From Beroe forskalii (taxonomy: Eukaryota > Ctenophora > Nuda > Beroida > Beroidae): 64,000 nucleotides of DNA. Both the position numbers and the translations under genes were made by a program. Positions 6,540 through 58,940 of the stretch are shown one piece after another (position 1 is the first letter of the stretch; every line of letters starts with the position of its first letter). Where the stretch lies: positions 1 to 64,000 of the forward strand of contig WFMF01000495.1 in assembly GCA_011033025.1 (NCBI GenBank), given 5' to 3'. Below the pieces are notes generated by a model that saw only the letters and a program-made list of their open reading frames with translations, ran no database searches and was not told the origin of the DNA.

Positions 6540-6955
6540 TTGAATTGGAAGCGACAAAAATCGGTTTTGGAGGAATGGAGCTCAAGGCAGTATATCAGGG
6601 TGAAAATATCTTGAAGGAAAGCCTCTCCCCAGCCAGGACAATCTGCTCTGATGTTGATGAATTTCTTGCTGATGTTGGAAGCAGCACAACAGATGATGAC
6701 CATCTGAGAAGCACATCCACAGCATACTTTCTATCTATAACATTCGGTCAGAGAATGAAGGGGTGGGCTGCATCTACTGTAGAGGTGAGCTGAACGATCT
6801 TGTCGTGGATACTTGGAAAGAATCCACTTGATGCAAATATCACATATCTGAGTATCTATTATTTCGGCAAAAGATTACCTAAATACTGAGCAGCAGTAGA
6901 CGTCAGACAACAAATCATTGCACTATCCATCCTATCTAAGATGGATTCAAGGATA
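6540..6955 (+). pseudogene. Degraded ORF fragment in right arm of the long-TIR element
   Basis: Inverted partner of 4721-5110. The longest frame (6545-6793) reads MELKAVYQGENILKESLSPA and then STTDDDHLRS. It is broken relative to the left-arm version (DEDHLRSTSVIHSILSIYNI). Function unknown. Confidence 0.35.
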
Positions 6956-9323: not shown

Positions 9324-9604
9324 AAATTGTATTGTCAATTTATATCATTGCACACACGCAAACGTATAAATATTAATAACCAACAGGTATGAACCACTCA
9401 ATATTAAAACTTGGCAAGACATGTCGATTTAAAGATCTCAATCAATCAAATTTACAAACTGAAATAAAATGAAATAATGCAATCATCAATTAATATTACC
9501 TACTGTACAAACTGAAAAGATAAAGCAAATAAAATAAAACTGATAAAATTATGATAAAGCAAACGCCCTAAAAGATGCGCAGTGGGATGGAATATTCCTG
9601 TGTA

Positions 9605-10822
9605 TTAAGCGTTTGTTTCTTGCCTAGTTTGAGCATAACACTTTCCATATAAGCGAGGCCGAAGATCGTTTGAGCAGTTTCCAAGGATTTGAATGTCCTT
9701 GAAAACAAACTCGCACTCGGGGTCACCCGTTTCGGATATGTGCCCATGGAGAGCGCTATTCTCTGTCCTAGGATTGAGATGCCCATTTGAACTGTAAAAT
9801 CTTTCATAAACCGTGTTTTTGGTTTTACCCAAATAAACACTTTTCGGCCCACACTTTTTACATTTAATGTAATAAATTACCCCCGATTTACATTCCAATG
9901 GCAAACTATTATATCCTTGAATCGAAACATATCCTTGATAGAAAATCCTCTCTTAAAAACAACCTTAAGATCAACACACGGATAGAATTTTCCAATCAAC
10001 TGTCTTAATCTCTTAGCTAAAAGGTAAGAGGGCTGGCCTAGAAACGGCAAAACAAACGTTATAGATTTCTTGCTAACAGTGTCAACTTGGTCATCAGGTA
10101 CCTCATATAACTTAGCCAGAAATTCGTTAGTACATTTGTCAATTAGTTTAGTAGGAAAACCATTACCAATAAATTTCTTTCTTAGAAATGTTAAATCTTG
10201 ATGAAACCACGAATACGTTGTTGCTATGGAGTAAATTCGAAAAATAAGACACCTTATGAGACTAAACTTATGAGAATTAGGGACAAAACTATGGAAAGCG
10301 TAGAACAAACCTCTGTCTGTGGCTTTCACTTTGGTTGAGACCTCCGTGAAAGGTTCGGACGAAGTCCGATGTACATAGGTGTCTAAGAATCCAAGTTTGT
10401 CATCGATTTCGAGTTCTATATCAAATTTAGTGGAGGAATCTATACTGTTAAGGAATTCTAAAAATCTGTGGGCAGTTTCTTCGTCGTCAAATAGACAAAA
10501 TGTATCATCAACGTATCTTCTATAAAATTCAGGATACATATCAGAGTGGACAAAATGTTCCTCTTCTAGGTAGCACATCCAGATGTCTGCTAGAATAGGA
10601 CCTAAACTGCTGCCCATAGCAACCCCATCATGCTGTTCGTAGACAGTACCATCGAAAACAAACGTACTGTTTATCACACAAAAACCAATTAATTTGCGAA
10701 GTACTTGTTCTGGGAGTGGTGGAGGAGTGAGGTGGGAGCGGTACAGTCTGTCCATGCAAATATCCACAGTCCGAGTCAGGGGAACATTGGTGAACAGGGA
10801 CTGTACGTCATATCCGAAACGG
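9605..10822 (-). pseudogene. PLE1 reverse transcriptase plus GIY-YIG endonuclease (frameshifted, 5' truncated)
   Basis: Frame 1 (about 10822-9877) has PLE RT signatures in order: YDVQSLFTNVPL (motif A), HDGVAMGSSLGPILAD (motif B), YRRYVDDTFCLF (catalytic YVDD) and LGFLDTYV. Frame 2 (9904-9605) holds the endonuclease: GVIYYIKCKKC, then VYLGKT (GIY-YIG core) and VYERF. The frame change near 9910 looks like a 2-nt gain or 1-nt loss between FKD and PLECKSG. The first codons before YDVQSLF (10860-10823) are antisense reading of the inverted pseudo-LTR, not part of the protein. The thumb and N-terminal RT regions before motif A are missing, so this copy cannot be autonomous. Confidence 0.8.
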
Positions 10823-11217
10823 GTGACCCCGAGTGCGAGTTTGTTTTCAAGGACATTCAAATCCTTGGAAACTGCTCAAACGATCTTCGGCTCCGCTATA
10901 TGGAAAGTGTTATGCTCAAACTAGGCAAGAAACAAACGCTTAATACACAGGAATATTCCATCCCACTGCGCATCTTTTAGGGCGTTGCTTTATCATAATT
11001 TTATCAGTTTTATTTGCTTTATCTTTTCAGTTTGTACAGTAGGTAATATTAATTGATGATTGCATTATTTCATTTTATTTCAGTTTGTAAATTTGATTGA
11101 TTGAGAACTTTTAATCGACATGTCTTGCCACGTTTTAATATTGAGTAGTTCTTACCTGTTGGTTATCAATATTTATACGTTTGCGTGTGTGCAATGATAT
11201 AAATTGACAATAAAATT

Positions 11218-11851: not shown

Positions 11852-13555
11852 TCACTGAATAAGAGGGATACTGAATGGATTGGAGGCATTTATCCCTCCA
11901 GGTTCCAATGTCTTCAACCCATGGATCCACCTATTTTCAGCAACGTCCAGGACATCGGGATTAGAATGCTGTAGAATTGAGAATCTATAAACTCTATTGA
12001 AATCATTATGGTTGGTGCAATTATGTTCTTTATATAAATGGTATGCTAATGACAAATCATTATTGTAAGTATTATCTGACAATACTTTATTTGGGTCCTT
12101 CTTTATTTTGTAATATAATGCTCTATGACCATTAATTCTGGTTCTGAGTTGGGAAACAGTTTTACCAACATAACCCTTATGACACAGCAAACAAGTAGCA
12201 AAATAAATAATGTTCCTTGATAAACATGATCCAGCCTTTGGTTGGATTGACTTCCCTTTGTATGACAAGTCATCTGAATTTGTCATCAAGGGGCATGACT
12301 GACACCTACTTGAACCACATGGGGTGGTTGCACCTGGGCCATTACCAATTACTAATTGTTTTGTCGATGATAAAAGACCACCCAAGTTTGGAGCTGTCCT
12401 GTAAACATGATTAAACATGATTTTCGTGTTGGAATTCAAAGTACTGAAACTGAATGTTTCCTTCAGGAGTTTCTCATATTTGTCCAAAGTTTCCTCAAGG
12501 AAGTCATTTGCCCCATAAGTGGATACTATTCGGATGGGTATAGTATTGGGGGTGACTTCTGATCTATCATTAGGACTTATGTTTCTTGAGAATCCTCCCA
12601 CTTTAGTGATAATGTTTTTCACCATGCCAACAGGATAACCACACTCATTGAATGTTTCTGATAGCTCAGATAGACGTGTGGCGAGTTTAACATCACAATT
12701 TATGATCCTCCTATATCTGATGGCTTGTGAGTAAACGATGCTGGAGAATACGTGATTTGGGTGGTGACTAGAAAAGTTCAAGAATGATGGAGAATCTGTA
12801 GGTTTTCGGTAAAGATCAGTCATGAGTTTACCATTATCATCAAAACAAAATTGGATATCTAAATATGGTAAAGGTTCACCATTCTTAGTCACAACAAAAT
12901 CGTCTGTTTTCAGACCAAATTCCAACAACTTATCTCTTACATCTTTCTCCCATTTCCTGAATAAACGTTCGGAACCATTAAAAGTTCCAACACAATCATC
13001 AACAAACCTTTTGAATGCCATAACATTACTCATTTTCTCTGGATCTGAATAGAGTATTTTCTCCATCACATAACAAACAGTTATGTTGGCTAACTCCACA
13101 CAAATGCTTCCACCAGTGGCGATTCCCTTCTTTTGCTGATACCAATTCCCCCTGTAACACCCAACTGATGATCGCATGCTCAGATCAACTAAGCTAATAA
13201 TCCAATCTATCTTCTCTTGAGGCCAACCCTCATACACCTTTTCAAGGGCATGTCGGACTGCTTCAAGGACAAGAGAAGGATTTAGTGAGTCATACAAACT
13301 AGCAAAGTCGAACGTGAAACATTTGAGAGTCTTTTTCTGGGTAGTTGTGTATTTATCGTCTAGAAGTTCGAGCCATTGCAGAGCACTTGTAGTGTCTTTC
13401 ACAAGGTCTTGACAAAAGAGTTTTTCTACATTTTTCAGGAAATTATGAGCAAGGAACACATCACTGCGTTTACATACACCAACGTTGAGTGCTGTGACGA
13501 GTCTGGCTGGAGGTTTACAACCAGGTTTTAACTGGTCACGTGTGACACAACATTC
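11852..13555 (-). CDS. PLE2 reverse transcriptase / GIY-YIG endonuclease, 5' truncated
   Basis: Open from a TGA at 13556-13558 to the stop at 11852, with no internal break. It begins inside the conserved PLE N-terminal RT region (CKPPARLVTALNVG, then VFLAHNFLKNVEKL). It continues through FTFDFASLYDSLNP (motif A), KKGIATGGSICVELAN (B), FKRFVDDCVGTF (C) and GEPLPYLDIQF. A Cys-rich linker (CGSSRCQSCPL) follows, then the GIY-YIG domain (RNIIYFATCLLC, GYVGKT, INGHR, YHLYKEHNC, ENRWIHGLKTLEPGG). The catalytic residues visible are intact. The likely initiator and N-terminus are missing, so it is probably an inactive but young copy. The protein is only distantly similar to PLE1 and PLE3. Confidence 0.85.
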   Translation of the reverse strand, partial: ECCVTRDQLKPGCKPPARLVTALNVGVCKRSDVFLAHNFLKNVEKLFCQDLVKDTTSALQWLELLDDKYTTTQKKTLKCFTFDFASLYDSLNPSLVLEAVRHALEKVYEGWPQEKIDWIISLVDLSMRSSVGCYRGNWYQQKKGIATGGSICVELANITVCYVMEKILYSDPEKMSNVMAFKRFVDDCVGTFNGSERLFRKWEKDVRDKLLEFGLKTDDFVVTKNGEPLPYLDIQFCFDDNGKLMTDLYRKPTDSPSFLNFSSHHPNHVFSSIVYSQAIRYRRIINCDVKLATRLSELSETFNECGYPVGMVKNIITKVGGFSRNISPNDRSEVTPNTIPIRIVSTYGANDFLEETLDKYEKLLKETFSFSTLNSNTKIMFNHVYRTAPNLGGLLSSTKQLVIGNGPGATTPCGSSRCQSCPLMTNSDDLSYKGKSIQPKAGSCLSRNIIYFATCLLCHKGYVGKTVSQLRTRINGHRALYYKIKKDPNKVLSDNTYNNDLSLAYHLYKEHNCTNHNDFNRVYRFSILQHSNPDVLDVAENRWIHGLKTLEPGGINASNPFSIPLIQ

Positions 13556-13620: not shown

Positions 13621-13715
13621 TTCCTAAGCCCGCATAGGTGTGTGTACGCGCCGCGCGCTTCCCTGTTGGCGAAGCGCGCCGCGCGAGCCCACACAGGGAT
13701 ATACGTGTTTAGCAA
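13621..13715. mobile_element. Family B miniature element (9-bp TSD)
   Basis: Ends TTCCTAAGCCCGCATAGG ... ATACGTGTTTAGCAA, with a CpG-rich hairpin core (cgccgcgcg / cgcgccgcgcg). It is flanked by perfect 9-bp repeats AAAAAATGA at 13612-13620 and 13716-13724. No coding capacity. TTNCTAA is shared by both termini. Confidence 0.85.
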
Positions 13716-14034: not shown

Positions 14035-14113
14035 CGAACCTTTGCGGACTTAGGAATTGCTAAACACGTACGCTTCCCCTAACCAGGGGTGTCGATACGA
14101 CACCCCTGGTTTA

Positions 14114-14361
14114 GGGTATCTCTCCCATATAAACGGCTCTGAGTGACGTCACAGATCTAAACGTCAATTTTTCTGTATCCTAAACCTAACCATAACCCAA
14201 ACCAAAACCCTAACCTTAATCCTAACCCTAACCCTATCAAATCTTGACCCTAATCCTGACCCTAACCCTACTCCTTAAAGCGCTAGGTGCGCTTAATTAT
14301 ATTTTTCTGAGTGACGTCATTGTCATAGATAATGAAGGCTCCCGTTTATATGGGAGACCTA
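14114..14361. mobile_element. Family C element with telomere-like interior, nested in family A
   Basis: Flanked by CCTGGTTTA at 14105-14113 and 14362-14370. Both ends carry CTCCCATATAAACGG (inverted), followed by a TGACGTCA-type box (gagtgacgtca on both sides). The centre is a run of CCCTAA variants. Confidence 0.75.
14171..14276. repeat. Degenerate telomere-type (CCCTAA)n array
   Basis: About 15 units of aaccctaacc-like sequence with variants (ccataaccc, aaaccctaa, tgaccctaat). Perfect CCCTAACCCTAACCC-type stretches are short. It lies wholly inside the family C element. Confidence 0.8.
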
Positions 14362-14484
14362 CCTGGTTTAGCGCTTGCCGCGCACTCCGTGCGCGTAACC
14401 AGGGCCCTGGTTAGGGCAACACGTACGCGTACACTCATGTTTGCGTCGACGGACGCTGCCCATTTATTTAGCTTCTGCACCTGA

Positions 14485-20117: not shown

Positions 20118-21156
20118 TCCAGTAGCTGAGGGCAGTGCCGTGTACTTTTCATTGTGGACGCAGTTTCTCGACGGTTTTCGTTAGTTTAAAGCATGATAAA
20201 GACATCTTGCCTGCTAACGTTATTTGAATCGACGTCCTGGGGGGTCGTGCATGCCACGCCCATTTTTTGCCCTCATGTGGTGTTACGAGGCCAGATTATT
20301 TCGACTTCTGATGGTCATAGAGACTTCAGATTTAAACCAGGTTGTCTACCTCTTCGAGGGGAACAACTTTTTCCCGGACAAGTTTCCTGTCAGATAATCT
20401 GTTAATTGACCAATTACCATTAGCTAATTGGGTGATTTTCATATATTCGAAAAAACTTTTCGCTTAAAATGATTGCAATAGCATAAAACGTGGAAAAAAC
20501 GTGTTTTTACGAATATTTTGAAAAATTTTTGACTTAGAAAATTTTCGGGACTTAGAAGAAGTTTGAGCGGAAAAATTCAAATTTTCTTTTTTTGCGTCCT
20601 TTAACTTTGTCCAACAATTTTTGGCTGCTAAAAGTCACTGCTGTTGCTTTTTGCTGTTCTGAAAGCACACTTTGACAGCTCCTACTCACTACTGAGCTAC
20701 TGGTAGTGTGCTCTCTCTGGCCCATAGACAGGGGGAGGACCCAGGGGCTGCAGCCCCCTCGGAAAATTGGAAACATTCCAAAATCGTACTCTAATTTTAA
20801 GAGTACAACAACCACAACAACCATGGTGCTCAGAGGGCTGTCTACCGTCTACATGCAGAAGCAGGAGCTGAAGAGGAAAGCTGTGGCAACTGAATTCTCC
20901 AAATAAGCGTGTTGCTGCTGATGCCTCCACTTCAAGCCAAGGTCAGGTTGTGCTGCCTCCTTCATGCTAGGTCCTTTAGGATATCCAGATGTAGACCAAC
21001 CCACCACTCCGCCAGAACCTCTGTTCTCCCTGAGTCCTGGAACACCCATCGCCCTTTTTACTATATTCTCTCTACTGCTGGGGGATTCCTGCTACACTGA
21101 ACACTGAAGAGAACAGACACCAATGCTGCTGTCATGATTGACTTTATCACCGGATC

Positions 21157-21800
21157 ATGGATGCAACCTGCAAGTCTTCACCCAACCGCTGCAAGCAGCT
21201 CTTCACCATCCATGACTTCTTCCCAGAGGAACTGCCCCTCCTTCTTCTAAGGACTCTATCCTGGCAAGACCACAACTCTCTACAAGCAACTCCCGGAGGA
21301 CGTTGACACCTGGGGTCCCTACCAACCCTCCTCCATCCTCCTGGACTACAAGCTGGCAATCCACAATGCTGTGGCCTTCGACCACCAGGGGTGGCAACTT
21401 ACACTTTAAGGAGTAGATATTATCGACGGAGCAGAAGTTCTGTATTCAGAGTAGGAACCAGATTGAGAACTCACCAATCAGAGTTTAAAACTTCACCAAG
21501 ATTGGAGCCATTTCTTTCGTTCCAATGGGTGATATTGAGCGTGGAGGATCCTCAAGCCGCTTCTCTTTGTAGACATGGCTGTCTTCACCTCCTACTTCCA
21601 CACCACTTATCTTCAGCCACATATTGCAATTACCAGACAGCACTGCGCTTCCTCAAGTGCTCCTCTTATAGTCGCTGGCACCACGACTTCCACTCTATGG
21701 CCCACGACTTTTCAACTACACCCTCTGGAACTTCCTGGATGCCCGAATCTGGCCTCAGCTTCAAATTAATTCCAGTCGAAGCATCAGCATTAGTGTGATT
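21157..21800 (+). pseudogene. MULE transposase remnants
   Basis: The frame from 21157 reads MDATCKSSPNRCKQLFTIHD, corresponding to the conserved MULE DGTF..... P..Q..TIH region. After a frame change it reads LPGKTTTLYKQLPEDVDTWG and SILLDYKLAIHNAVA, like the IL.D(F/Y)E.A..NA motif. Downstream (about 21540-21800) further pieces read FVDMAVFTSYFHTTYLQ and YGPRLFNYTLWNFLDARIWP, plausible for the domain after the catalytic core. Many frame breaks make it inactive. Confidence 0.6.
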
Positions 21801-21867
21801 ATTTTGGGAGGGGAAGGCAGTCATGTCTACAGGGAAAAAGAGGTTGACTCTTAATGGTCCTCAACAC

Positions 21868-22145
21868 TCAGTCAACATTACCCACTAGAACAAAGGAAAT
21901 GGCTCCAATCTTGGCGAAGTCCTGAGCTCTGATTGGTGAGTTCTCAATCTGTTGCATACTCATACAGAAGTTCTGCTCGGCATATATGCTTGAGGGGGAC
22001 TGCTTAAAGTAGACGTTGCAACCCCCGGTGGTATGAGGCCACAGCATTGTGAATTGCTGGCTCGTAGTCCAGGAGGATAGAGCAGGGTTGGTACTTTTGT
22101 TGGGACCCCAAGTGTCAACTTCCACCTAGAGTTGCTTGTAGAGGG
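21868..22145 (-). pseudogene. Inverted duplicate of MULE transposase fragment
   Basis: Minus-strand reading gives EVDTWGPN, SWTTSQQFTMLWPHTTGGCN in one frame and LLDYEPAIHNAVA-like codons in another, then GCNVYFKQSPSSIYAEQNFC and AQDFAKIGAISFVLVGN. It corresponds to 21280-21560 on the plus strand. Confidence 0.5.
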
Positions 22146-22810
22146 TTGTGAGAGATAATGAAGTAAAAAAGGTTATGGGTGTTCCAGGTCTCAAGGAAAA
22201 CAGAGGTTTAAAATCACGAAAAAAGGGAGGGGTTAAATGAGAGGTGGAGTGTAAATTTGAATGGAATGGTTTGAAAAAAATGAGTGTCCCTAATCAATGG
22301 TTTACTGATAAAAGTCATCACCAACATACCTAACTCCTGACAAAAAAGAGCATGATTTTGAGAAAACAGTTGGTGGGGTTTTCAGATGGCTGCTAGATCA
22401 CTATAAAATTCTAACAAAAGCAAAGAATGGATTTACATTTGTTTTATTTGTGTATAAAATAAAACAAATGGGGAGGGAGTTAAATGGGGAGGGAGTTAAA
22501 TGACTGTCCCAGATTGTAGTAAAAATCGAAGAAACTGCAATCGTCACCCCCTTGATATCTGATACTGAAGAGTAGCAAGGGAGGAGAGGAGTCAACCCAT
22601 CTTGGCCTTGGCTTCAAGTGGAAGCATCAGCAGCAACACGCTTATTTGGGGAAGTCAGTTACCACAGCTCCCCTTTTGAGCTCCTGCTTTCGCATGTAGA
22701 CGGTAGAGACAGCTCTCTGAGCACCATGGTTGTTGTGGTCAGGAACAGGGGTTGTCAGCTGCTTGTCAACAGTGGTGATCCTGGCTCTGCAACCAGTTCT
22801 GAAGAGAGCA

Positions 22811-23275
22811 CAGGCCCGTAGCAAGGTTTTTACCGGGTAGGGCCCTGCACAATGAGCAAGCTGCAGCAGGTGTTTGGGGCATAGCCCCCAGAAAAATTTT
22901 GAAAAATAGAGTGTTCTAGACTGTTTATTGGGGGTCCAAATTTATCAAGTTTATCATTCTTGCATTCGTTTTCACACACAAAAAATAGCATAGTTTCATC
23001 CTGGCACGAATATTACGATTAGCCACCCCCACACACCACCATCATCTTTCTCATCCACCTTCAGCTTCAGCCCTCACCCCCTCCGCCCCAGTGGCGGTCA
23101 GAGGCAGGCACAGCCCCACTCCAGGGCTATCCTCCTGTGGACCTTCGGGTCCGGCCTCTCTTTTGATGAATATTACGATATTCGACATTTCTTAAAATTA
23201 GAGTACGATTTTGGAATGTTTCCAATTTTCTGAGGGGGCTGCAGCCCCTGGGTCCTCCCCCTGTCTATGGGCCAG
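22811..23275. mobile_element. hAT-type nonautonomous element inside the MULE
   Basis: Ends CAGGCCCGTAG ... CTATGGGCCAG (TIR CWGGCCCRTAG), with an 8-bp TSD AGAGAGCA (22803-22810 and 23276-23283). A ~150-bp C-rich segment at about 23015-23170 is inserted in it and is also found near 46110-46200. The right half of this element is also present, inverted, in the left MULE arm at about 20715-20800. Confidence 0.75.
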
Positions 23276-23871
23276 AGAGAGCACACTACCAGTAGCTCAG
23301 TAGTGAGTAGGAGCTGTCAGTGTGCTTTCAGAACAGCAAAAAGCAACAACAGTGACTTTTAGCAGCCAAAAATTGTTGGACAAAGTTAAAGGACGCAAAA
23401 AAAAGAAAATTTGAATTTTTCCGCTCAAAATTTTTCTAAGTCCCGAAAATTTTCTAAGTCAAAAATTTTTCAAAATATTCTTAAAAACCCGTTTTTTCCA
23501 CGTTATATGTTATTGCGATCATTTTAAGCCAAAAAAAGTTTTTTCGAATTTTTGAAAATGACCCAATTAGCTAATTGGTCAATTAACTAATTATCTGACA
23601 AAAAAGTTGTCAGAGAAAAAGTTGTTTCCCTTGATGAGATAGACACCCTGGTTAAATTCTGAAGTCTCTATGACCATCAGAAGTCGAAATAATCTAGCCT
23701 CGTAACACCACATGAGGGCAAAAAGGGGCGTGGCCGTACGACCCCCCAGGACGTCGATTCAAATAACGTTAGCAGGCAGGATGTCTTAATCATGCTTTAA
23801 ACTAACGAAAACCGTCGAGAAACTGCGTCCACAATGAAAAGTACACGGCACTGCCCTCAGCTACTGGAGTA

Positions 23872-24204: not shown

Positions 24205-24910
24205 TTGATCGACAATCGTTGTCCGACTTATTTCCTGACATGATGAGTTGACGATAAAGCATAAAAGTGACCTTCCAATACATGATACAATCGCGCTTCT
24301 TCTATCAAATTAGTGTCACATCGCAATACTAACATCATTGAATCAATTTTATAAATCTTCGTTGTTATGCGGGCGCTATATATTTCCCTCTCCTAAAAGT
24401 TTAAATTGACGCGCGCAGATAAAAATATCACGTGGGCGATTTCGTTCCACGTGCCAAATGTTCACGCGCGCGTTCCCGCCATTTCGTAGAACTCTTTGAA
24501 GATTCATTTAGTTGCGCGCCGTTCAGAGTTTCATAACCGTTTTCCTTACGCGTTACGTTTTCTTATGTGTTGCGTTGCAGATATCAAACTGATGCAATGT
24601 TCTTTATCGTTTTACCCCGCCTTAATTGTTTTTCAAGATTGAGACATACACAATATAATATTTACTGAACAAGATTAAGATAAAAGATTCAGATATATCA
24701 TTATTATCAATATTGGACCTCGACCGAGACAAACTCTCATGTCTTTCTTTCCTCTCGTCAATTCTTTAGATCATTTCATAACTGATTGCACTAATACTGC
24801 CCATTGTTATATTAAGGAATCTTTTCACAGAATAGAGATATCTGTATTTTTCGAATGAACAAAAGTAAAAGGGTTCAAGACTTTGGCGCACCATGTAGTG
24901 GCCAAATTTA
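24205..24910. other. Noncoding
   Basis: No gene seen. A CpG-bearing stretch (24380-24560: gcgcgcagat, cacgtgggcg, cacgcgcgcg) stands out from the AT-rich surroundings. Confidence 0.35.
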
Positions 24911-25200
24911 GGCCTCCTGACTTCCTGACAGGCGGTACCCCGTCTACTTTTGTTGACAAGCTCTAAACTTCTAAACAGGTTTTAGACGGGTTTAGAGAAG
25001 ATTTGAAAAGGATTTGCATCTTTTTTATCAACTCTGTGACAGGTTTTGACGGGTTTGCCACATTTCAAAAACTAACTTGCAACCGGTTGGGGACACGTTC
25101 GATAAGTTTGTGATTCTGTAAAGCTGTAACAGGTTTTACACAGATTCTATTTCTATGCTCCTTTGACAAGATTTGACCGGGTACCGCCTGTCAGGAGACC
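24911..25200. mobile_element. 290-bp TIR miniature element
   Basis: Left end GGCCTCCTGACTTCCTGACA then GGCGGTACCCCGTC; right end inverted as GGTCTCCTGACAGGCGGTAC then CCGGTC. The interior has repeated caggttttaga.gggttt. No clear TSD. Confidence 0.6.
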
Positions 25201-26275
25201 TTGATTTTGAGAGGTTTTCGCCGATAAATGTTGGGTTATGACGATATGTTGGGTAATATTGACGATAGGTTTAAATTGTGTCAGTGTGTCACTGCCAGCA
25301 AACTTCATTTCTCTATCGAAGCGATTCCTCTTTACAGTTTGGATAAGCTCGGATTGCCAATTGTCACAAATTTATCCCAAATTATACTAGTCTGGAAGGC
25401 ACCATGAAAATAACCTTGAATAAAGCACATTATTTTAGCAGTTAAGAAGAAGACCTAATCTATTTTAAGCAACAGCCTCTGCCTAGCAGGTGCAGTATTT
25501 GCTACCGACCGATGAGCTTCTTATTGTAGTGTTTTAAATTCAGTTGAAACTATTTTTCTCTACGAGTATAAATTAAAATCGAATTGATTGTACATTTGAT
25601 CATTCAAGCAAATTGTTGAATTCCACTGATTTGGTTGTATACATTCTAGTACTTCATATTACTTACCATGAGTAGGCTATATAAATGCGATGACGTAATG
25701 CAATCACGTAGCAGGAAACCGCGCCACCTAAAAACTGTGTCGTTCGCGCGGAAATGGTCGCGAGCGCACGTACAGTAAAAAGCTTCGCCAGAAATAGGGG
25801 TGTCGTTTCGCGACACCCCTGGTTAGGGGAAGCTTGTACATTTTGATGTTTTAAAGAAAGTCTTTATTTTATGGATTTTTCTCTACTAAATTGGTAACTG
25901 CTGCTTCTCCAACATAGCCCTTTAGCCGCAAAAGTCATGCCACAATAATGCAATAATGCAATAATGTTTTTAGTTTTTATCTTTTATATACTGTATTTCG
26001 TTAGGTTGTTTTCATCCTCTATTGCTCATTTTGAGCATGTGTTTTTAACCTTAATTTTATTTTTTCTTTCTTTCAGTCACTGCTGAATTTGTTTTGGGTG
26101 TTTTCATCCATTTCTATGCATGCTTTTTAACCTTAATTTATTACTTAATTTTCTTTTTAATATTGTCGGTCCATGAATTTCTGGTAACCTGTTTAGCACA
26201 GTTTTGATATAGTACATTGTGCTCGCAAGAAGGAGCATGTTTCCTGTAGAATTATTAATTAATTAATTAATTATC
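25201..26275. other. Noncoding with a family A hairpin relic
   Basis: 25797-25831 is a near-perfect hairpin (GGGGTGTCG / CGACACCCC) followed by TGGTTAGGGGAAG, a relic of family A. A (TTAA)n run lies at about 26250-26270. No gene. Confidence 0.45.
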
Positions 26276-26666: not shown

Positions 26667-28378
26667 TCAGTGTCGCTGGGTTTTTATACCCAGCGATCGA
26701 CGACACATAGAACTGATGGAATCAATAACTCCACCAGGGATTTCTTTGTTCAGCCCAAAAGGCCTCATAGTCATGAGTCTGTTTGCCCACTTATTTTCAG
26801 CTGAATCCAAGTTTCGTGGGCCAAGTTCAAGAATAGTGAATGTGTAATTGCTATTGAAAGCCTCAGGTGAGTTCTGCCTATGAGATTCATGGAGATGTTC
26901 AGCCAATGTGGCCTCATCTGAGTCTGGGTCAAATGAACTTTCACCAACATGAGATCGATGTCCATTGATTCTACACTGAAGTTTATTGCTCGATTTTCCA
27001 ACATATTGCCTTCCACATAAAAAACACTCTGCACAGTATATCACACTTCGGGACTTGCAGTTACCACAAGGAGTGACATATGTCTTACCTGAAGTCCTTG
27101 ATTTTATTGTAGGACTATTTGACATTAAAGGACAAGATTCACAGGGTCTCCCTCTCCTATTCCTGGGACGTCTCAATGGAGTACAGCGAGATGTACCTGA
27201 GCTGTCATCTGAATCTGACAATGCAAACTTTTCCTTTTCAGGATGAATTCACCAAGATTTCGGGATCTTCTATTAACCACACCTATTGGTTTTTCATCAT
27301 TGGACCAGGCAATGCAATTCTTTAGAACTTTATTCGCATCTTTTACTAAGCTTTTGATTTGCTTTGTGGCAGGCCCAAAGGTCTGGATCCAAAGGACTTT
27401 ATTAGGAGGGTTTTTATCTTTCTTTTTATAAGATAAATTCCTTGGTCGTTTGACGACATCATCCAATATAGTATCTATCATTTTCTTAGGGTATCCAGAA
27501 TTAAGGAAACAGGTTCTGAGCTCTCCAAACCTTCTGTACAGCCTAATGTCATCATTTATAATTCTTCTGTATCTAAGGGCCTGTGAGTAAACTATTGAGG
27601 GAAATGTGTTCTGAGGATGATGACTTGAGTAATGAAGATAATTGTGGGAATCTGTGGATTTAATGTTAATGTCTGTTGACAGAGACCCAGTGCTGTTGAA
27701 CATAAATTTTATATCAAGGAAAGTTGTGAATGATTCACCTTGATTTAACTGCCAAGGTTCCTTAGGATCATCTTTTATGGAAAGTCCTAGTTTTTTCAAA
27801 TTCTCATTTATTAAATTGGCCCACTCAACAAATTCTTCTTTAGACCCAACCCATAAGCCAGCCAAGTCGTCAACAAAACGTTTAAGGCCAAGTAGGTGAG
27901 GTGATGCATTATCTGAGTCAAAGATGGCACATCTTAATGCATAATTCACAGCTATATTTGCCAAGGAAACCGACAGAGAGCCACCTGTTGCTATGCCAGA
28001 CTTGTTCTGAAACCAATATCTCCCATGTCTGCCAAAGCAAGATGATAGGCTGAGGTCAACAAGATCCAAAACCCATGACACAAATTCCTCACCCCAATCT
28101 GATCTTTGTTCTGAAATAGCAAATAGAAGGGCTTCCTTGACCAATTCAGGAGTCAGGTTATCATAGAGAGAGGAAAAATCCCAACTGAATCCACTGATAT
28201 CAGGCAACCTCAATCCAGATACCTCCTCCAGCCAATTTAGTGCTTCAGTAGAATCTCTAACAAGATCCCCACAAAAGTCCTTTTGCAAAGGCTGGAGGTA
28301 TTTCCAATTGATGAACTTGTCTGATCTTGCAGTTGGAGACTGACTGAGGTCATTAACCAATCTCAAAGGTATGTCTGA
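26667..28378 (-). pseudogene. PLE3 reverse transcriptase / GIY-YIG endonuclease (one frameshift)
   Basis: The RT frame (28378-27173) begins at SDIPLRLVNDL in the conserved N-terminal region. It shows FSWDFSSLYDNLTP (A), KSGIATGGSLSVSLAN (B), LKRFVDDLAGLW (C) and FTTFLDIKFMF. The second frame (27221-26667) carries the Cys linker (RPCESCPLMSN), then SVIYCAECFLC, QYVGKSS, INGHRSH, EHLHESH and ENKWANRLMTMRPFGLN. The frames overlap at 27173-27221, so a single indel separates them. The GIY-YIG core residues visible are present. Confidence 0.8.
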
Positions 28379-36943: not shown

Positions 36944-37110
36944 TTCCCCTAACCAGGGGTGTCGATTAGCGCTTGCCGCGCCGCGCACTCCGTGCGCGTA
37001 ACCATTGCTAAACACGTATATCCCTGTGTGGGCTCCCGTAGGGAAGCGCGCGGCGCGTACACACACCTATGCGGGCTTAGGAAGCGTAACCAGGGCCCTG
37101 GTTAGGGCAA
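36944..37110. mobile_element. Family A element interrupted by family B
   Basis: TTCCCCTAACCAGGGGTGTC ... CCTGGTTAGGGCAA, flanked by GCTTTGAA (36936-36943 and 37111-37118). The family B element at 37005-37083 splits it. Confidence 0.8.
37005..37083. mobile_element. Family B element nested in family A
   Basis: TTGCTAAACACGTATATCCC ... CTATGCGGGCTTAGGAA, flanked by GCGTAACCA at 36996-37004 and 37084-37092. That 9-mer occurs once in uninterrupted family A copies. Confidence 0.85.
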
Positions 37111-37457: not shown

Positions 37458-37556
37458 TTGCTAAACACGTATATCCCTGTCTATGTCTGCGTTGTGCGGC
37501 GCGCTTCCTCAGGGTAGCGCGGCGCGCGTATACGCACACCTATGCGGGCTTAGGAA
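37458..37556. mobile_element. Family B element (9-bp TSD)
   Basis: TTGCTAAACACGTATATCCC ... ATGCGGGCTTAGGAA, flanked by CTAGCGCGC (37449-37457 and 37557-37565). A related near-empty site is at about 53448-53470 (catccctgcgcgcaacactcgg). Confidence 0.85.
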
Positions 37557-37625
37557 CTAGCGCGCAACACTCGGAAATTTGGAGGGTTGTGTTGCAGACA
37601 GAAAAAAATGGCGCGCGGCGGAGGG

Positions 37626-37704
37626 TTCCCCTAACCAGGGGCGTCGCGAAACGCTTGGCGCGCCGCGCACTCCGTGCGCGTAACCAGGGTCCTGGTTAGG
37701 GCAA
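37626..37704. mobile_element. Family A element (9-bp TSD)
   Basis: 79 bp, TTCCCCTAACCAGGGGCGTC ... TCCTGGTTAGGGCAA, with a GCGCACTCCGTGCGC hairpin. Flanked by GGCGGAGGG (37617-37625 and 37705-37713). The related locus at 53511-53519 has a single GGCGGAGGG and no insert. Confidence 0.9.
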
Positions 37705-37764
37705 GGCGGAGGGTAGGGTAAAATCCTACTAAAAATTATTCAGATTTAAACCAACCGCACACCT

Positions 37765-37851
37765 TTTCCTAAACAGGGGCGTCGCGAGACGGCCTGGTTT
37801 AGCGGCTTGCCGCGCACTCCGTGCGCGAAACCAGGGCGCTGGTTTGGGCAA
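37765..37851. mobile_element. Family A element, diverged
   Basis: TTTTCCTAAACAGGGGCGTC ... GCGCTGGTTTGGGCAA with the same GCGCACTCCGTGCGC core. No TSD detectable; probably an older copy. Confidence 0.65.
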
Positions 37852-50182: not shown

Positions 50183-51799
50183 ACCTAGGTGGCAAAATGG
50201 TACCACAGGAACACGACAAAAATTAGCCTCCATTAGCCTCCATGGAGGCTGAGTGGAGCCTGAGTGGAGGCTAAGTGGAGGCTAATTTCAAAAATTAGCC
50301 TCCACGAAGGCTAATGGAGGCATGAGGCTAATTTTCGAAAAATAGCATCCACTATGGAGGCTAATTAGCCTCCACCCAGCCTCCACTAGCCTCCACTCAG
50401 CCTCCATGGAGGCTAATTTTTGGTTTAGCCTCCACTAGCCTCCACTCAAGAATAAGCCTCCATTAGCCTCCACGGAAATTAAAAAAGTCATTTTTTGGAT
50501 TCTATGGAAGCTATTTTGACAGTGCTAGTGGAGGCTATAGCCTCCAAATGGAGGCTAAAATCATGAAAAAACACAGATAATATGCTAGCCTCCACAAAAT
50601 TAAATTTACCTTTGTCATGTTTTTACAAAAAGAGTACATTTTGTAACATAGACCAAAGTTTCTAATCCAGCTAGTATTAGGCACCACTCGGCCTCCAATA
50701 GAATCCACTCAGCCTCCACTAGGCTCCACTAGGCTTCACTCAGCCTCCACTAGGCTCCACTAGCCTCCACTAGGCTAGTGGAGCTAAGTGGAGCCTAGTG
50801 GAGGCTGAGTGGAGCCTAGTGGAGGCTGATTGGAGCCTAGTGGAGGCTGAATGGAGCCTAGTGGAGGCTGAGTAGAGCCTAGTGGAGGCTAGTGGAGGTT
50901 GAGTGGAGCCTAGTGGAGGCTGAATGGAGCCTAGTGGAGGCTGAGTGGAGGCTAGTGGAGCCTAGTGGAGGCTAGTGGAGCCTAGTGGAGCCTAGTGGAG
51001 CCTATTGGATCCTAGTGGAGGCTAGTGGAGGCTAGTGGAGCCTAGTGGTGGCCAGCGGAGCCTAGTGCTCTAGTGGAGGCTGAGTGGAGGCTAGTGGGGC
51101 CTGAGTGGAGCCTAGTGGAGGCTGAGTGGAGGCTAAGTGGAGGCTAGTGGAGGCTAAGTGGAGGCTAGTGGAGGCTAAGTGGAGGCTGAGTGGAGCCTAG
51201 TGGAGGCTGAGTGGAGCCTAGTAGAGGCTGAGTGGAGCCTAGTGGAGGCTGAGTGGAGCCTAGTGGAGGCTGAGTAGGGCCTAGTGGAGGCTGAGTGTAG
51301 GATAGTTGGAGCTGTCTGAAAGTTTGAAGCTATATATTGTTTTTCACATTAGTACACATAAATCACCATTTTCAGCAATAAATTTTGTGTTTTGTAGGCT
51401 CATTGATTTAGGCTCCACTCAGCCTCCACTCAGCTTTAGCCTCCACAAAAATGACTTTTTAAATTTCCGTGGAGGCTAATGGAGGCTAATTCTTGAGTGG
51501 AGGCTAGTGGAGGCTAGTGGAGGCTAAACCAAAAATTTAGCCTCCATGGAGGCTGAGTGGAGGCTGAGTGGAGCCTAGTGGAGGCTGGGTGAAGGCTAAT
51601 TAGCCTCCATAGTGGAGGCTATTTTTCGAAAATTAGCCTCATGCCTCCATTAGCCTCCGTGGAGGCTAATTTTTGAAATTAGCCTCCACTCAGGCTCCAC
51701 TCAGCCTCCATGGAGGCTAATGGAGGCTAATGAAGGCTAATTTTTGTCGTGTTCCTGTGGTACCATTTTGCCACCTAGGTACCATTTTGCCACCTAGGT
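50183..51799. mobile_element. 1.6 kb foldback element built of a GCCTCCACTAG minisatellite
   Basis: Ends CCTAGGTGGCAAAATGGTAC and complement, with ~380-bp inverted arms (to about 50560 and from about 51400). The arms contain accacaggaacacgacaaaa, then arrays of attagcctcca. The right end has an extra 19-bp tandem copy (51762-51780, 51781-51799). No ORF of its own. Confidence 0.75.
50690..51310. repeat. 21-bp minisatellite (TGGAGGCTGAGTGGAGCCTAG)
   Basis: About 28 imperfect units alternating GGAGGCTGAG and GGAGCCTAG. At about 50755-50790 the orientation flips (ctaggctccac to gtggagcctag), making the centre palindromic. Confidence 0.85.
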
Positions 51800-52559: not shown

Positions 52560-53170
52560 ATGTGGCAATCCACATGTGGCGCGCGCGAGGGGGTCAGGCA
52601 ACGCCTGGCAAACCCACTTAATCAATACCAGAGCCATCATTTCCAGGGGCTATGGAGCTGAAGCGCGATTTCCTAAACCCTGGCCGTATATGTCAGGCGA
52701 CGTCAGACAAGGCCTTATAGGCGTACTTCTGAGGAAGTGCGACGCGCAACGCGAACAATTATTTATGTGTTTAGCAACCTTGGTTAGCAGACGCCCCTGG
52801 TTACTGGTTAGGAGAATAGGAGACTAGACGCCGCGCCGCGCTTTTCTTTAACCAGAGCAGAAGTTTCGATACGACACCCCCATGGCCGCGCGCCCGCGCC
52901 TTGCTAAACACGTATATCACTGAAACTGTGGTTCGCGCTTGCACTAACCAGCGCCCTGGTTGATCGCACACGGAGTGGGCGGCGCGACGCCCCTGGTTAG
53001 GGGAAGGTTCGCGCGCGCCGCGGTGCGCGTACACACCATCTAGGGTCCTGGTTAGGGCAACGCGCGGGGAATAGTTCCTAATGTCGGCTGCATAGTTTCC
53101 TTTCGCCTAATTACCAGGGGTGTCGATACGGCACGCGCTTGCCGTATACGTGTTTAGCAAGTGTTAACGT
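52560..53170. mobile_element. Cluster of broken family A and B elements
   Basis: Recognisable pieces: tgtgtttagcaa (52767), acgcccctggttactggtta (52790), TTGCTAAACACGTATATCAC (52900), gcgccctggttgatcg (52951), gcccctggttaggggaa (52989), gtcctggttagggcaa (53045), ttaccaggggtgtcgatacg (53111) and two acgtgtttagcaa ends (53148, 53166). Repeated nesting has scrambled the borders. Confidence 0.6.
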
Positions 53171-53829: not shown

Positions 53830-53905
53830 TTCCCCTAACCAGGGGTGTCGCTGGTTTGGAGCAAGGCGCGGCGCGCGCGTAAAACTAGGGATCTGGTTAG
53901 AGCAA
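53830..53905. mobile_element. Family A element (9-bp TSD)
   Basis: TTCCCCTAACCAGGGGTGTC ... GATCTGGTTAGAGCAA, flanked by TCTGTTTAC (53821-53829 and 53906-53914). Confidence 0.85.
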
Positions 53906-54082: not shown

Positions 54083-55216
54083 CAGGGGCGGCTCGTATGG
54101 GTGTATGGGTGTTGAGTTCCCCTAACCAAGGGTGTCGATACGTTTAGCGCTTGCCGCGCCGCGCACTCCGTGCGCGTAACCAGGGCCCTGGTTAGGGCAA
54201 GGTGTTGAGATACACCCAAAGCAGATAAGAAGAAAATAAGAAGAAAAGATCAAAAATAAAAATCTATTTTTTTTTCTTTCTTCCATAGTCACGCGCGCGG
54301 CGCACACTCGCGGAGAATACCAAATCATTAAAAAAAAAAAGCCGCGCATTAAATTCGATTTATTCTTGCTCGAAAATCGAGCGCTATTATATGGGTGTAA
54401 CGCGCACACCCAAAATCAGGGATTTTACGTGTAAGTTGCAATGATCTCTTAGCGGCTCGTCAAATCTGGGTGCGTAGTGTAATTTTACAATAGATGGGTG
54501 CGAGCGTACACCCATGGTTTGGCGGGAAACTTTCGAGGAAAATTCTGGTAGAACTCTGCAATTAGCGCCATTTCTCTTGCGTCTGCTTGAATTACGTCAC
54601 TCTTTTCTTTGTAGGCATTTAACTATCGGCATATGAACGTTATTTTCTAAAACTTTAAGATTGAATCCACGAACTATATTTCCGTACTTACTTTATTTGA
54701 ACACGAAATTGAAGTAAGTTTTCTGAGGATAAACGATGAAACTTTTCGCAAAATTAGTTGATTTGAAGGTGATCGGCATTTAAATCTTCAGATCATGCAT
54801 TTCAATATCATTTTCGATTTTGTTTGTCAATCTTCATCATACCTCCATCTTCATCATCTTCTCCACCTTCATAAAGACCATACAAGAGCACAAAACCACT
54901 TAGCAGCACGTGAGTACATAATATTGGTGATATTTATTCAGGTCCGTCAATTTCGAAATATGATTTACAGTACAGTGTGATAAAATGTCGATGTGATATC
55001 CTTAAAATTGAGATTTTAGCGTCGAAAAATTCGCTTATTTTTGGATAAATTTGACAATTTTAGACCATTTTCATTGCACAATTGAAGAAGAAAATCGTCG
55101 GGTCCGCCTACGGCGTAGGCCTCCGGCAGTTGGGGGGCCCGCCCCCCAAACCCCCTGAGTCCCTCGAACCCCGGTACCCAAACCCCCATTCCTCCCACCC
55201 CCACGAGCCGCCCCTG
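54083..55216. mobile_element. hAT-type nonautonomous element, 1.13 kb
   Basis: TIR CAGGGGCGGCTCGT at both ends with a perfect 8-bp TSD AAATCTTG (54075-54082 and 55217-55224). The interior is noncoding and contains repeated tgggtgt/acaccca words. A C-rich subterminal stretch lies at about 55100-55200. A family A copy is inserted near its left end. Confidence 0.85.
54117..54200. mobile_element. Family A element inside the hAT element (9-bp TSD)
   Basis: 84 bp, TTCCCCTAACCAAGGGTGTC ... GCCCTGGTTAGGGCAA with a GCGCACTCCGTGCGC hairpin. Flanked by GGTGTTGAG (54108-54116 and 54201-54209). This is the fullest uninterrupted family A copy. Confidence 0.9.
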
Positions 55217-56168: not shown

Positions 56169-58940
56169 CTGGACCGTGCAAGTTTTGATCATTATAATTT
56201 GCTTGTATGATGAATTTAAATCTGAAAATTAAAACCAATGATCGTACTCATACTAAACGTTGAATCAAAGCATTGATTTACGCCAAGAGCAGTATTCCAA
56301 TATCGCAATGTGCTATGCCCAAATTCGATTCAGTTTGATTTTGATTTTGTTCAATCTTAAACTGCTGTAAATTCACATTTTTCCGTTACCATCAACTCAG
56401 CACTTATTTAAATCGACCGATGTCTGTCACAGATTTATGAAGAGATGCTAACAGAAATAGCCTCCACGATGCCAGCCATACCCGTTCTCTATTTCCAGAT
56501 CTTGAATTTCAAATGAAAAACAGTAAACATGTCTTTCTTTCAAACGCTAAAATGCAGCAATCAACAACGTATCAGAAAGCACTCGCATAGAACTGATAAT
56601 AATCTGCACGTTCAGAATATCTGTATCCATGATACGGCGCGACTTAGCCCAGCTTTGCCTTCGTTTCTCAAAGGAAATTAAGAAGAAAGGCTGAGAAAAA
56701 TAAAGACAAAAGTCTACATCACAAAATAATGTTTGAGGAAATCCGGGCAGAGACTACCATCATGGCCAATCTTAAAAAGAAGCAATACTATAGTTCACTG
56801 CTAGAAAAGAACAAAGGTAACATCAAGGCAATTTACAATGTTGTTAACCGTGAGTTGGACAGGAAACAGGATCACATTCTTCCTGAGGCTCAGGATATAG
56901 CAGTGCTCAGCAAAAAGTTCAATGAATATTTCAATGAAAAGATCGAGAACATTCGTGCTACCCTACCTTCTATAAGTAGTTCCTGTTATTCCGAGCCTCA
57001 ACCTGTTTTCTCTGATGGCTACTTGAATGAGTTTTCCCCATGCACTGAAGGTGAGCTCAGAGACATCATCCAATGTAGTGGAATCAAATGTGCACCATCT
57101 GACTTCTTGCCAGAACACTTAGTCAAAGAAAACATAGACACCCTCATTCCACTGCTGTGTAAATTGGTCAACCAATCACTATCCACTGGTTCAATGGATG
57201 GGTTAAAAATTGCTGACATCATCCCCACTTTGAAAGACACTAAACTAGACCCAAATGATTTCAAAAACTTCAGACCTATATCTAATCTTTCCTTCTTAGG
57301 TAAGCTTATTGAGCGTGTTGTCCTTGAAAGACTCAATGTCCATCTTGATAAAAATAACATGAATATTCCTCAGCAGTCAGCATACAAGAAAAACTTTTCC
57401 ACTGAAACAATCCTACTCAAAGTAACAAATGACCTATTGATTGCTTGTGATAAAAGATCAGCTACAGTGTTGATTATGTTGGACCTCTCAGCAGCATTTG
57501 ACACTGTTGATCACAAGAAGTTACTTGAAATCTTGAGTAAAGAGATTAAAATCAGGGGAACTGCTTTGAAGTGGTTCAAGAGCTTTTTAATGGGTCGATC
57601 TCAAAGGACTAGGCTGGGGACCATCGTCAGTGACTCCATAGTGCTTCAATTTGGTGTACCTCAAGGCTCTGTGCTCGGACCAATTTTGTTTAACATTTAC
57701 ACCAGATCATTATACAAAACAATTGAAAAGACTGGGTTCATGATTCATGGGTATGCTGATGATCAGCAGGTATATAAGACATTCAGTCCTAGTGAACAGG
57801 CTGATGTACTTAACACCCAAGTCAGGAACTGCTTCAACACTGTTCAAAATTGGATGATCGACTTTTGCCTGCAACTGAATCCTGGCAAAACTCAAATCAT
57901 GATCATTGGACCTCCACATATCTTGAATCAGATAAACATTGGTGGTATAATTCTTCCTGGTAATATCTGTATAAGATTCACATCAAATGTGCGAAACCTG
58001 GGGATCACAGTTGATAACAAACTTTCTTTTAGCACTCATGTTACTGCTCTCAAAAAGGACTGTTTTCGCCTCATCAGAAATGTGGTCAAAAAACGATTCA
58101 TCTTTTCAAATGATCAGATGAAGCTTATTGTAAATAGCATTGTAGCCTGCAGATTGGACTACTGTAACTCTCTTTATTTTGGACTCAATGATAGCCTGCT
58201 AAACCAACTTCAGCTTATTCAGAATGCTGCTGCTAAAGCTGTAGTGGGACTCTACAAGCATGACCACCTTGGTGAAACTTTAAAAGAGCTGCATTGGTTA
58301 CCAATAAAATACCGTGTTCAGTTTAAATTACTTTTATTGGTTTATAAGTGTCTGAATGGTCTGGGACCTGATTATTTAATGAGTATGTTTAGGTATGCTG
58401 ACTTTAATCATTCTATATATTTACATGAACCTAGAGTACTATCACACTATGGTGAACGTTCTTTTCAGAAAACTGGGCCTAAACTCTGGAATTGCCTTCC
58501 TCTAGAACTAAAAAGTTGTTCTAATATTGATATTTTTAAATCAGCACTGAAAACACATTTGTTTAAGATGGCTTTCAACAACTAGGGTACTAGCATATCC
58601 TAGTAATTTTTAATGTTATTTCCTTGGCTGGTTTTAATGCTATTTCCTTGACTGGTTTTTATGTATATTATAGGTAGGTATCCTTTTAATTTATTCAATT
58701 CTCGAGTTTGCAATTTCCTGTATATAGTACGTTTGTTTTGGAATGACAGTGCTTATTTCTAATTTAAATTCTGTTAACTTATTATCTTAACTTATGTATT
58801 TAACTTTATTATGGATTTAATACTGTTGCACTGTCATATGTACTTTGCAAGTAATGTTTTTCGTGGCACAGCTGTGCATTGAAATAAGTTGATGTGCCAC
58901 TATAATATAAAAGTCTAAATTATTATTATTATTCTCTTGA
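56169..58940 (+). mobile_element. CR1/L2-like LINE, 5' truncated
   Basis: Contains the RT ORF, a ~340-bp 3'UTR (two ttccttg.ctggtttt copies at 58619-58660) and an (ATT)n tail at about 58918-58934. The apurinic endonuclease region is absent. 56169-56650 has no readable frame and its relation to the element is uncertain. Confidence 0.7.
56656..58585 (+). CDS. LINE reverse transcriptase (EN-less remnant)
   Basis: Frame open from a TAG at about 56648; first Met at 56729 gives 618 codons. N-terminal linker (KKKQYYSSLLEKNKGNIKAI) precedes the RT: DFKNFRPISNLSFLGKLIER, QQSAYKKNFSTETILLKV, MLDLSAAFDTVDH (motif A Asp), QFGVPQGSVLGPILFNIY and GYADDQQVY (catalytic YADD, about residue 342), then LNPGKTQIM. 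The C-terminal part has LDYCNSLYFGL, LLLLVYKCLNGLGPDYL and GPKLWNCLPLELKS. Catalytic residues are intact and the frame is unbroken, so insertion was recent. Without the endonuclease it is not autonomous. Confidence 0.85.

Follow-up and report, generated by a model that had tools for sequence, protein, structure and literature searches.

Elements at the locus

The window, by which we mean the whole 64,000-nucleotide stretch of Beroe forskalii DNA that was analysed, contains genes with HAD phosphatase and CFAP65-type domains and several reverse transcriptase-like open reading frames (ORFs). One of these ORFs (56648-58585) scored well above the Pfam RVT_1 cut-off, two (9877-10875 and 27173-28378) fell below it, and a fourth (11852-13555), whose C-terminal stretch we take to be GIY-YIG-like, had no Pfam match at E 0.001. 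Large palindromes with inverted arms kilobases apart occupy 9418-11124, 20215-23771 and 50183-51799. The same stretch carries very short elements of two families, A and B, and part of a long relative, X2:

37626..37704, plus strand: family A element, subfamily A1, 79 bp; exact target-site duplication GGCGGAGGG at 37617-37625 and 37705-37713
53830..53905, plus strand: family A element, subfamily A2, 76 bp, right end ...AACTAGGGATCTGGTTAGAGCAA; exact duplication TCTGTTTAC
54117..54200, plus strand: family A element, subfamily A1, 84 bp; exact duplication GGTGTTGAG
52939..53005, minus strand: family A element, 67 bp, absent from the preliminary description; exact duplication GGTTCGCGC
14074..14419, plus strand: family A composite, 346 bp; exact duplication CACGTACGC on both sides
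36944..37110, plus strand: family A composite, 167 bp, made of a 79-bp A element and a nested B element; 8-bp repeat GCTTTGAA with a one-base shift
37764..37851, plus strand: diverged relative with ends TTTTCCTAAACAGGGG / GCTGGTTTGGGCAA; 9-bp duplication not seen
37005..37083, no strand assigned: family B element, 79 bp, nested in the composite at 36944-37110; its own exact duplication GCGTAACCA
13621..13715, no strand assigned: family B element, 95 bp; exact duplication AAAAAATGA
37458..37556, no strand assigned: family B element, 99 bp; exact duplication CTAGCGCGC
24806..25831, minus strand: left part of long element X2, opening with the family A left end; genome copies span query positions 1-1026, and the right end was not located in the window

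The preliminary description of this DNA had reported three short copies with common ends, each between perfect 9-bp repeats, and two composites. All three copies are real, and the exact 9-bp duplication is present twice at each. Their ends agree overall, except that the copy at 53830 has the variant right end ATCTGGTTAGAGCAA and the copy at 54117 has a single base changed in its left end (CCAAGG). The GCGCACTCCGTGCGC hairpin, said to make up most of each copy, is found in two of the three; because the copy at 53830 lacks it and has a variant right end, we assign that copy to a sister subfamily, A2. The composite at 14074-14419 has exact flanking repeats as claimed, whereas the flanks of 36944-37110 (AGCTTTGAA and GCTTTGAAG) share only 8 bp, shifted by one base. 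Within the former lies an inner insertion of about 249 bp (14107-14371), which has inverted ends of its own, GGTATCTCTCCC / GGTAGGTCTCCC, together with the 8-bp repeat TGGTTTAG. With these small corrections, the original observation of elements bounded by 9-bp duplications holds.

The other tiny family, B, has ends TTCCTAAGCCCGCATAGG...TATACGTGTTTAGCAA and differs from A in its interior, but it shows the same 9-bp duplication and the same pairing of one end beginning TTC with one beginning TTG. Its three elements in the window had all escaped the preliminary description. A motif-free scan of the window for exact flanking repeats next to inverted ends at most 6 kb apart returned six matches at repeat length 9, five of which were family A. 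Other lengths gave 2, 24, 19 and 1 matches (7, 8, 10 and 11 bp); those at 8 and 10 were mostly self-complementary words within the three large palindromes, one at 7 came from the 67-bp A element, its frame shifted, and another at 8 from the composite at 36944-37110.

Genome-wide copies and subfamily structure

We searched the genome assembly (216 Mb, 1,134 contigs) for family A ends. The 15-base end TTSCCCTAACCAGGG has 1,935 exact copies (979 + 956) and its reversed control none; a string comprising the core and right end occurs 396 times and the A2 right end 321 times. Because TTC ends outnumber TTG ends 77 to 23 among 100 listed places of the 15-base end, a fair guess is that exact left ends number about 1,500 and family A copies over 1,000, tandem arrays contributing some of the ends. 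A search with the 84-bp copy at 54117, as the preliminary description had proposed, gave 49 match rows from the 40 scored of 1,311 candidates, with five further full-length genome copies at 99%.

Family A elements open with the left end TTCCCCTAACCAGGGG. Read inward, the right end is TTGCCCTAACCAGGG or GGA in A1, TTGCTCTAACCAGATC in A2 and TTGCCCTAACCAGCG in A3. A second AACCAGGG usually lies on the right side, opposing the terminal one, and A1 and A3 have in addition a CGCGCACTCCGTGCGCG hairpin. Elements with these ends range overall from 30 bp, where the two ends abut, to 4,109 bp; those of family A with exact duplications measure 30 to 346 bp, and 51 of 66 non-overlapping cases fall between 58 and 100 bp, which is short for miniature inverted-repeat transposable elements (MITEs). 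In 60 elements under 120 bp, G+C content was 0.63 and the observed/expected CpG ratio 1.03, against 0.67 in the window. Pieces of A or B lie within 40 bp of 22/66 A elements compared with 132/5,000 random window positions, an excess inflated by the choice of loci.

Family A elements are short, non-coding and bounded by terminal inverted repeats. Classical MITEs such as Tourist and Stowaway are likewise short, non-coding and present in high copy number, with inverted ends, fixed-length duplications and a tendency to nest in one another; they differ in being AT-rich with duplications of 2-3 bp, whereas family A is CpG-rich with duplications of 9 bp. Rfam gave no match on the window at gathering scores, one exact A1 and one exact A2 pattern had no match in the genome contigs of other collections, and the A1, A2 and B patterns had none in a viral contig collection. 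Among the titles listed on sponge or very short GC-rich MITEs, none described these elements.

Nine-base-pair duplications and handed ends

To determine how consistently the ends are flanked by duplications, we counted direct repeats around pairs of ends in fetched DNA. Of 157 family A end pairs 26-420 bp apart, 68 had an exact flanking 9-bp repeat, a proportion that is not a genome-wide rate because the loci were fetched for containing such ends. At 5, 6, 7 and 8 bp the same pairs gave 2, 0, 2 and 4 repeats, and at 10-13 bp none. This count omits two tandem arrays (L136 and L137), the second of which mimics duplications; with them it becomes 74/165. Once pairs sharing a boundary with a shorter pair were removed, 66 exact A pairs remained. 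Family B behaved similarly, with exact 9-bp repeats at 12/41 end pairs and none at 5-8 or 10-13 bp. Duplication length is therefore fixed at 9 bp, as expected of MITEs, other lengths being seen at eight A pairs and no B pair.

Two less selected samples gave a comparable picture. The first comprised 98 distinct exact ends on contigs C1-C99. For 48/98, an opposite end was found together with a 9-bp repeat that was exact (40) or had one mismatch, counted by ends, so that an element with both ends exact enters twice. The other 50 had no recognised partner plus duplication, the elements being decayed, nested or long. In the second sample, of A2 right ends, 11/21 had a partner and an exact 9-bp repeat; ten had no recognised partner, one of them belonging to a 4.1-kb element whose left end lay beyond the fetched window. 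A lack of consistent 9-bp repeats at genome copies would have refuted the preliminary description, but the sampled copies carry them. Oriented by their TTC end, the 64 distinct duplicated 9-mers are mildly enriched for G at position 1 (30/64) and for C at positions 8 and 9 (27 and 26), which is compatible with a weak, symmetric target preference.

The two ends of an element are not equivalent. A TTC end was joined to a TTG end in 65 of the 66 non-overlapping exact A pairs and in 11 of the 12 exact B pairs. Since A and B share little else, the mobilising enzyme may recognise the third base of the end. That the pairing is fixed in both families, whose interiors are unrelated, suggests that this enzyme distinguishes left from right.

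Long elements with the same ends

Ten of the 98 sampled ends open into non-typical sequence beginning ...ACAYCCCTATTTCT rather than into a tiny element. Longer elements with the same ends, whose existence the preliminary description had asked about, were indeed found; the transposase that they were expected to encode was not recognised in the parts of them that were scanned. One copy of X2 is complete (C248:446083-450191): it is 4,109 bp long, has a TTG and a TTC end and is flanked on both sides by the exact duplication CCTAAGCTC. A further copy, on C88, runs into an assembly gap. The ends are therefore outermost both in the short elements and in this complete 4.1-kb element, and not internal to a larger repeat, the other outcome that would have counted against the preliminary description. 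A foldback unit bounded by CTACATGGTGCGCCAAAAGTCTTG / ...CTTTTGGCGCACCCTGTAG is nested inside X2 at L156 (C248) and looks mariner-like.

Two more long relatives, X1 and X5, were each traced from one end. For X1, 26 of 66 match rows (self included), on many contigs, start exactly at query position 1; the element exceeds 7 kb, and the 7-10 kb followed from L138 and L139 did not extend to its right end. A candidate end at position 6864 or 6925 of L138 was dropped because other copies continue past it. X1 elements are clustered on contig C25 (L089, L090, L091, L094, L098, L138 and L139) as well as dispersed elsewhere, and local transposition is a possible reason for the clustering. The X5 right end is present at three loci (L161, L177 and L178), of which L161 and L177 continue into ...AAACCAGGGCTCTATTTCTGGC; its left end was not reached. 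A 115-bp query from the X5 interior had 38 match rows covering the whole of it or the greater part, 13 of them full length at 100%. X2 left ends and X5 right ends lie in the same orientation about 10-16 kb apart on C218, C248 and C1020. That they bound one long element was not upheld: nesting is equally likely, because L178 has an X2 left end situated about 205 bp within an X5 right end.

The domain scan covered eight ORFs of the X1 region, none of which reached a Pfam cut-off. Below the cut-off, there was a weak reverse transcriptase piece in an insertion specific to L139, and two weak matches in another ORF. With no transposase domain in the 7-10 kb followed from L138 and L139, X1 was set aside as a candidate autonomous element. 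A 67-residue peptide, assembled from two stretches of the 4.1-kb element that resemble exons, likewise gave no match.

A proposed model for movement in trans

Several features are directly observed: the elements have defined boundaries, their exact 9-bp duplications fall at unrelated sites, their ends are handed, they nest in one another, and short elements have their ends in common with one complete long element. Together they make it highly probable that family A and its sister family B are non-autonomous DNA transposons (MITEs) moved in trans with 9-bp staggered insertion. What we infer beyond this concerns the type of transposase, cut-and-paste movement and the routes of deletion. A transposase encoded elsewhere would bind the handed TTC-type and TTG-type ends; the element would be cut out and inserted at a 9-bp staggered cut, and gap repair would produce the duplication. 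Longer elements with the same ends (X2, and X1 and X5 from one end each) are the probable stock, from which tiny ones would arise by internal deletion; A2 elements, for instance, can be read as X-type ends joined after such a deletion. The tiny elements retain little beyond their ends, and deletion between the two TAACCAGGG repeats has probably reduced some of them to 30 bp in situ. Elements pared down almost to a pair of transposase ends offer a natural experiment on the minimal length of a mobile DNA transposon.

Candidate transposases

The preliminary description had proposed Mutator-like mobilisation. A DDE transposase of Mutator (MULE/IS256) type remains our leading guess, held with slightly less than even confidence. 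In the portion of the superfamily literature available to us, MULE/MuDR duplications span 8-11 bp, a range that includes the 9 bp of family A (PMC6446971). The genome contains 46 MULE-domain matches, one of which (L055) lies in a unit of 2,303 bp whose ends are GGTTGGGGGACGG / GGGTCAGGGACGG and which is flanked by an exact 9-bp duplication, ACTAGATTT. Against the proposal, no transposase was found in an element with these ends, and none of the 30 MULE loci fetched (of 46) showed a family A end (at most two mismatches) within 1.5 kb on either side. In 11 MULE pairs compared, the left boundary started with G in seven, was unreadable in four and started with TT in none; except at L055, these are homology boundaries rather than proven ends. 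L055 and the G-starting boundaries indicate that a MULE unit with a flanking 9-bp repeat occurs here, but with other ends. Family A ends are thus unlike the MULE ends of the same genome, a local comparison that does not define a superfamily.

Parallels with two described systems keep a divergent MULE in the lead. The first is Tm1, a Mutator/Foldback group of root-knot nematodes, as characterised in the available part of its description (PMC3169594). Its duplications are mostly 9 bp (8-10) with no clear target consensus, and it has MITE-like members and one transposase-encoding element in the M. incognita set (PMC3169594). It resembles family A in the predominance of 9-bp duplications, in the unlike outermost motifs of its two ends and in its MITE-like members (PMC3169594); to us, the unlike outer motifs likewise suggest left/right discrimination. 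It differs in having composite inverted repeats of 13-15-bp tandem units with outer motifs CGGTTAA / CCTACCC (PMC3169594), whereas family A has short TTSCCCTAACC ends without tandem units and is not linked to a Phantom-type transposase. The second comprises Muta1 and related MULEs of Aedes aegypti, which, in the part of the account available, resemble family A in their 8-9-bp duplications, in their many derivatives with varied interiors and in an imperfect palindromic terminal motif (PMC5225508). They also have 145-bp inverted repeats, 12-bp subterminal repeats and an encoded transposase (PMC5225508), none of which was seen in family A.

The main rival is a DDE transposase outside the MULEs, from a lineage with handed ends starting TTS and strict 9-bp duplications that none of the superfamilies weighed here would match, which we regard as a serious contender of roughly one chance in three. 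It would account for the G-starting MULE boundaries (7/11, none starting TT) and for the TTC/TTG handedness that A and B have in common despite different interiors. In its favour, too, the two DDE_Tnp_1 loci fetched (of four matches in the genome) have no pair of such ends; both have a second ORF and by eye we take them to be Harbinger-like. PIF/Harbinger duplications are 3 bp long and those of family A 9 bp. Weighing against this rival is the coverage of the MULE survey (30 of 46 loci, 1.5 kb each side); moreover, because no transposase of any kind has been tied to these ends, little can be read into the missing MULE link. A MULE source would reveal the extent to which the ends of MULEs may diverge in a single genome; a new transposase lineage would add a superfamily. 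A stronger version, in which A and B mark an undescribed lineage with synapsis of unlike TTC/TTG ends, strictly 9-bp duplications and cargo from about 4 kb down to 58 or even 30 bp, seems unlikely to us; were it true, the smallest cargo would be far below the usual spacing of paired ends. For AcademH (citing papers) and IS4EU, the portions of the literature available offered no usable statement on 9-bp duplications.

Superfamilies such as hAT, Merlin, P and KDZ usually make 8-bp duplications. That one of them gives 9 bp here is improbable, although hATm is described, in the extract available, with duplications of 8 or 9 bp (PMC6004678). Repeats of exactly 8 bp flank 4/157 A end pairs against 68 at 9 bp; hATm ends read TAGGGTG rather than starting TTS (PMC6004678), and the Merlin duplication is given, in a source likewise available in part, as 8 bp (PMC10045372). 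Family A therefore shows neither the 8-bp duplication nor the terminal motif of Merlin or hAT.

Thirty-base-pair forms, tandem arrays and the hairpin

A search for exact forms found the two ends back to back, as a 30-bp sequence, at 14 places (16 pattern matches, two places being counted on both strands). At five of these the duplication is exact and at one it has a single mismatch, all at unrelated sites; at the other eight it has two mismatches, is shifted or is absent. The six duplications could mean that even the 30-bp form transposes, as an element consisting of its two 15-bp ends and nothing else. We consider this a long shot: in an ordinary A1 element, a deletion running from one TAACCAGGG direct repeat to the other would leave precisely this sequence and retain the duplication, which makes mobility at 30 bp unnecessary; bringing two ends into synapsis without any spacer would be physically hard; and eight of the 14 places have no such duplication.

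Two contigs carry tandem arrays. At C377:5500-5850 (L137), the 30-bp form and a 9-bp spacer are repeated with period 39 in about five units, a satellite apparently born of an element and its target duplication; slippage or unequal exchange could have amplified the two together. On C225, the 15-base left end is repeated head to tail with period 15 at 511846-511996 (L136) and 513105-513195, in 10 and 6 consecutive pattern matches, and these arrays are a small satellite built from a transposon end.

Single-strand folding of the four copies examined was better than that of shuffled sequences (z of -3.4, -2.1, -3.3 and -6.7). Across 40 A1/A3 hairpins, drawn from an earlier set of 81 pairs (72 distinct sequences, the L017 locus entered twice), there was no independent compensatory change: double changes were found in 2/280 cells, both at one locus, and 10 cells were broken. 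The folding and the arrays on C225 and C377 would also fit a repeat that serves the host in regulation or structure and was propagated by recombination or slippage, not a transposon. Exact 9-bp duplications at unrelated sites already contradict this reading; the same duplications around A2 elements, which lack this hairpin, and the lack of convincing covariation also speak against it, and we give it almost no credence. Because compensatory change is absent and A2 elements do without it, the hairpin of these transposons is best regarded as filler that the elements inherited or as a side effect of having binding sites in inverted orientation.
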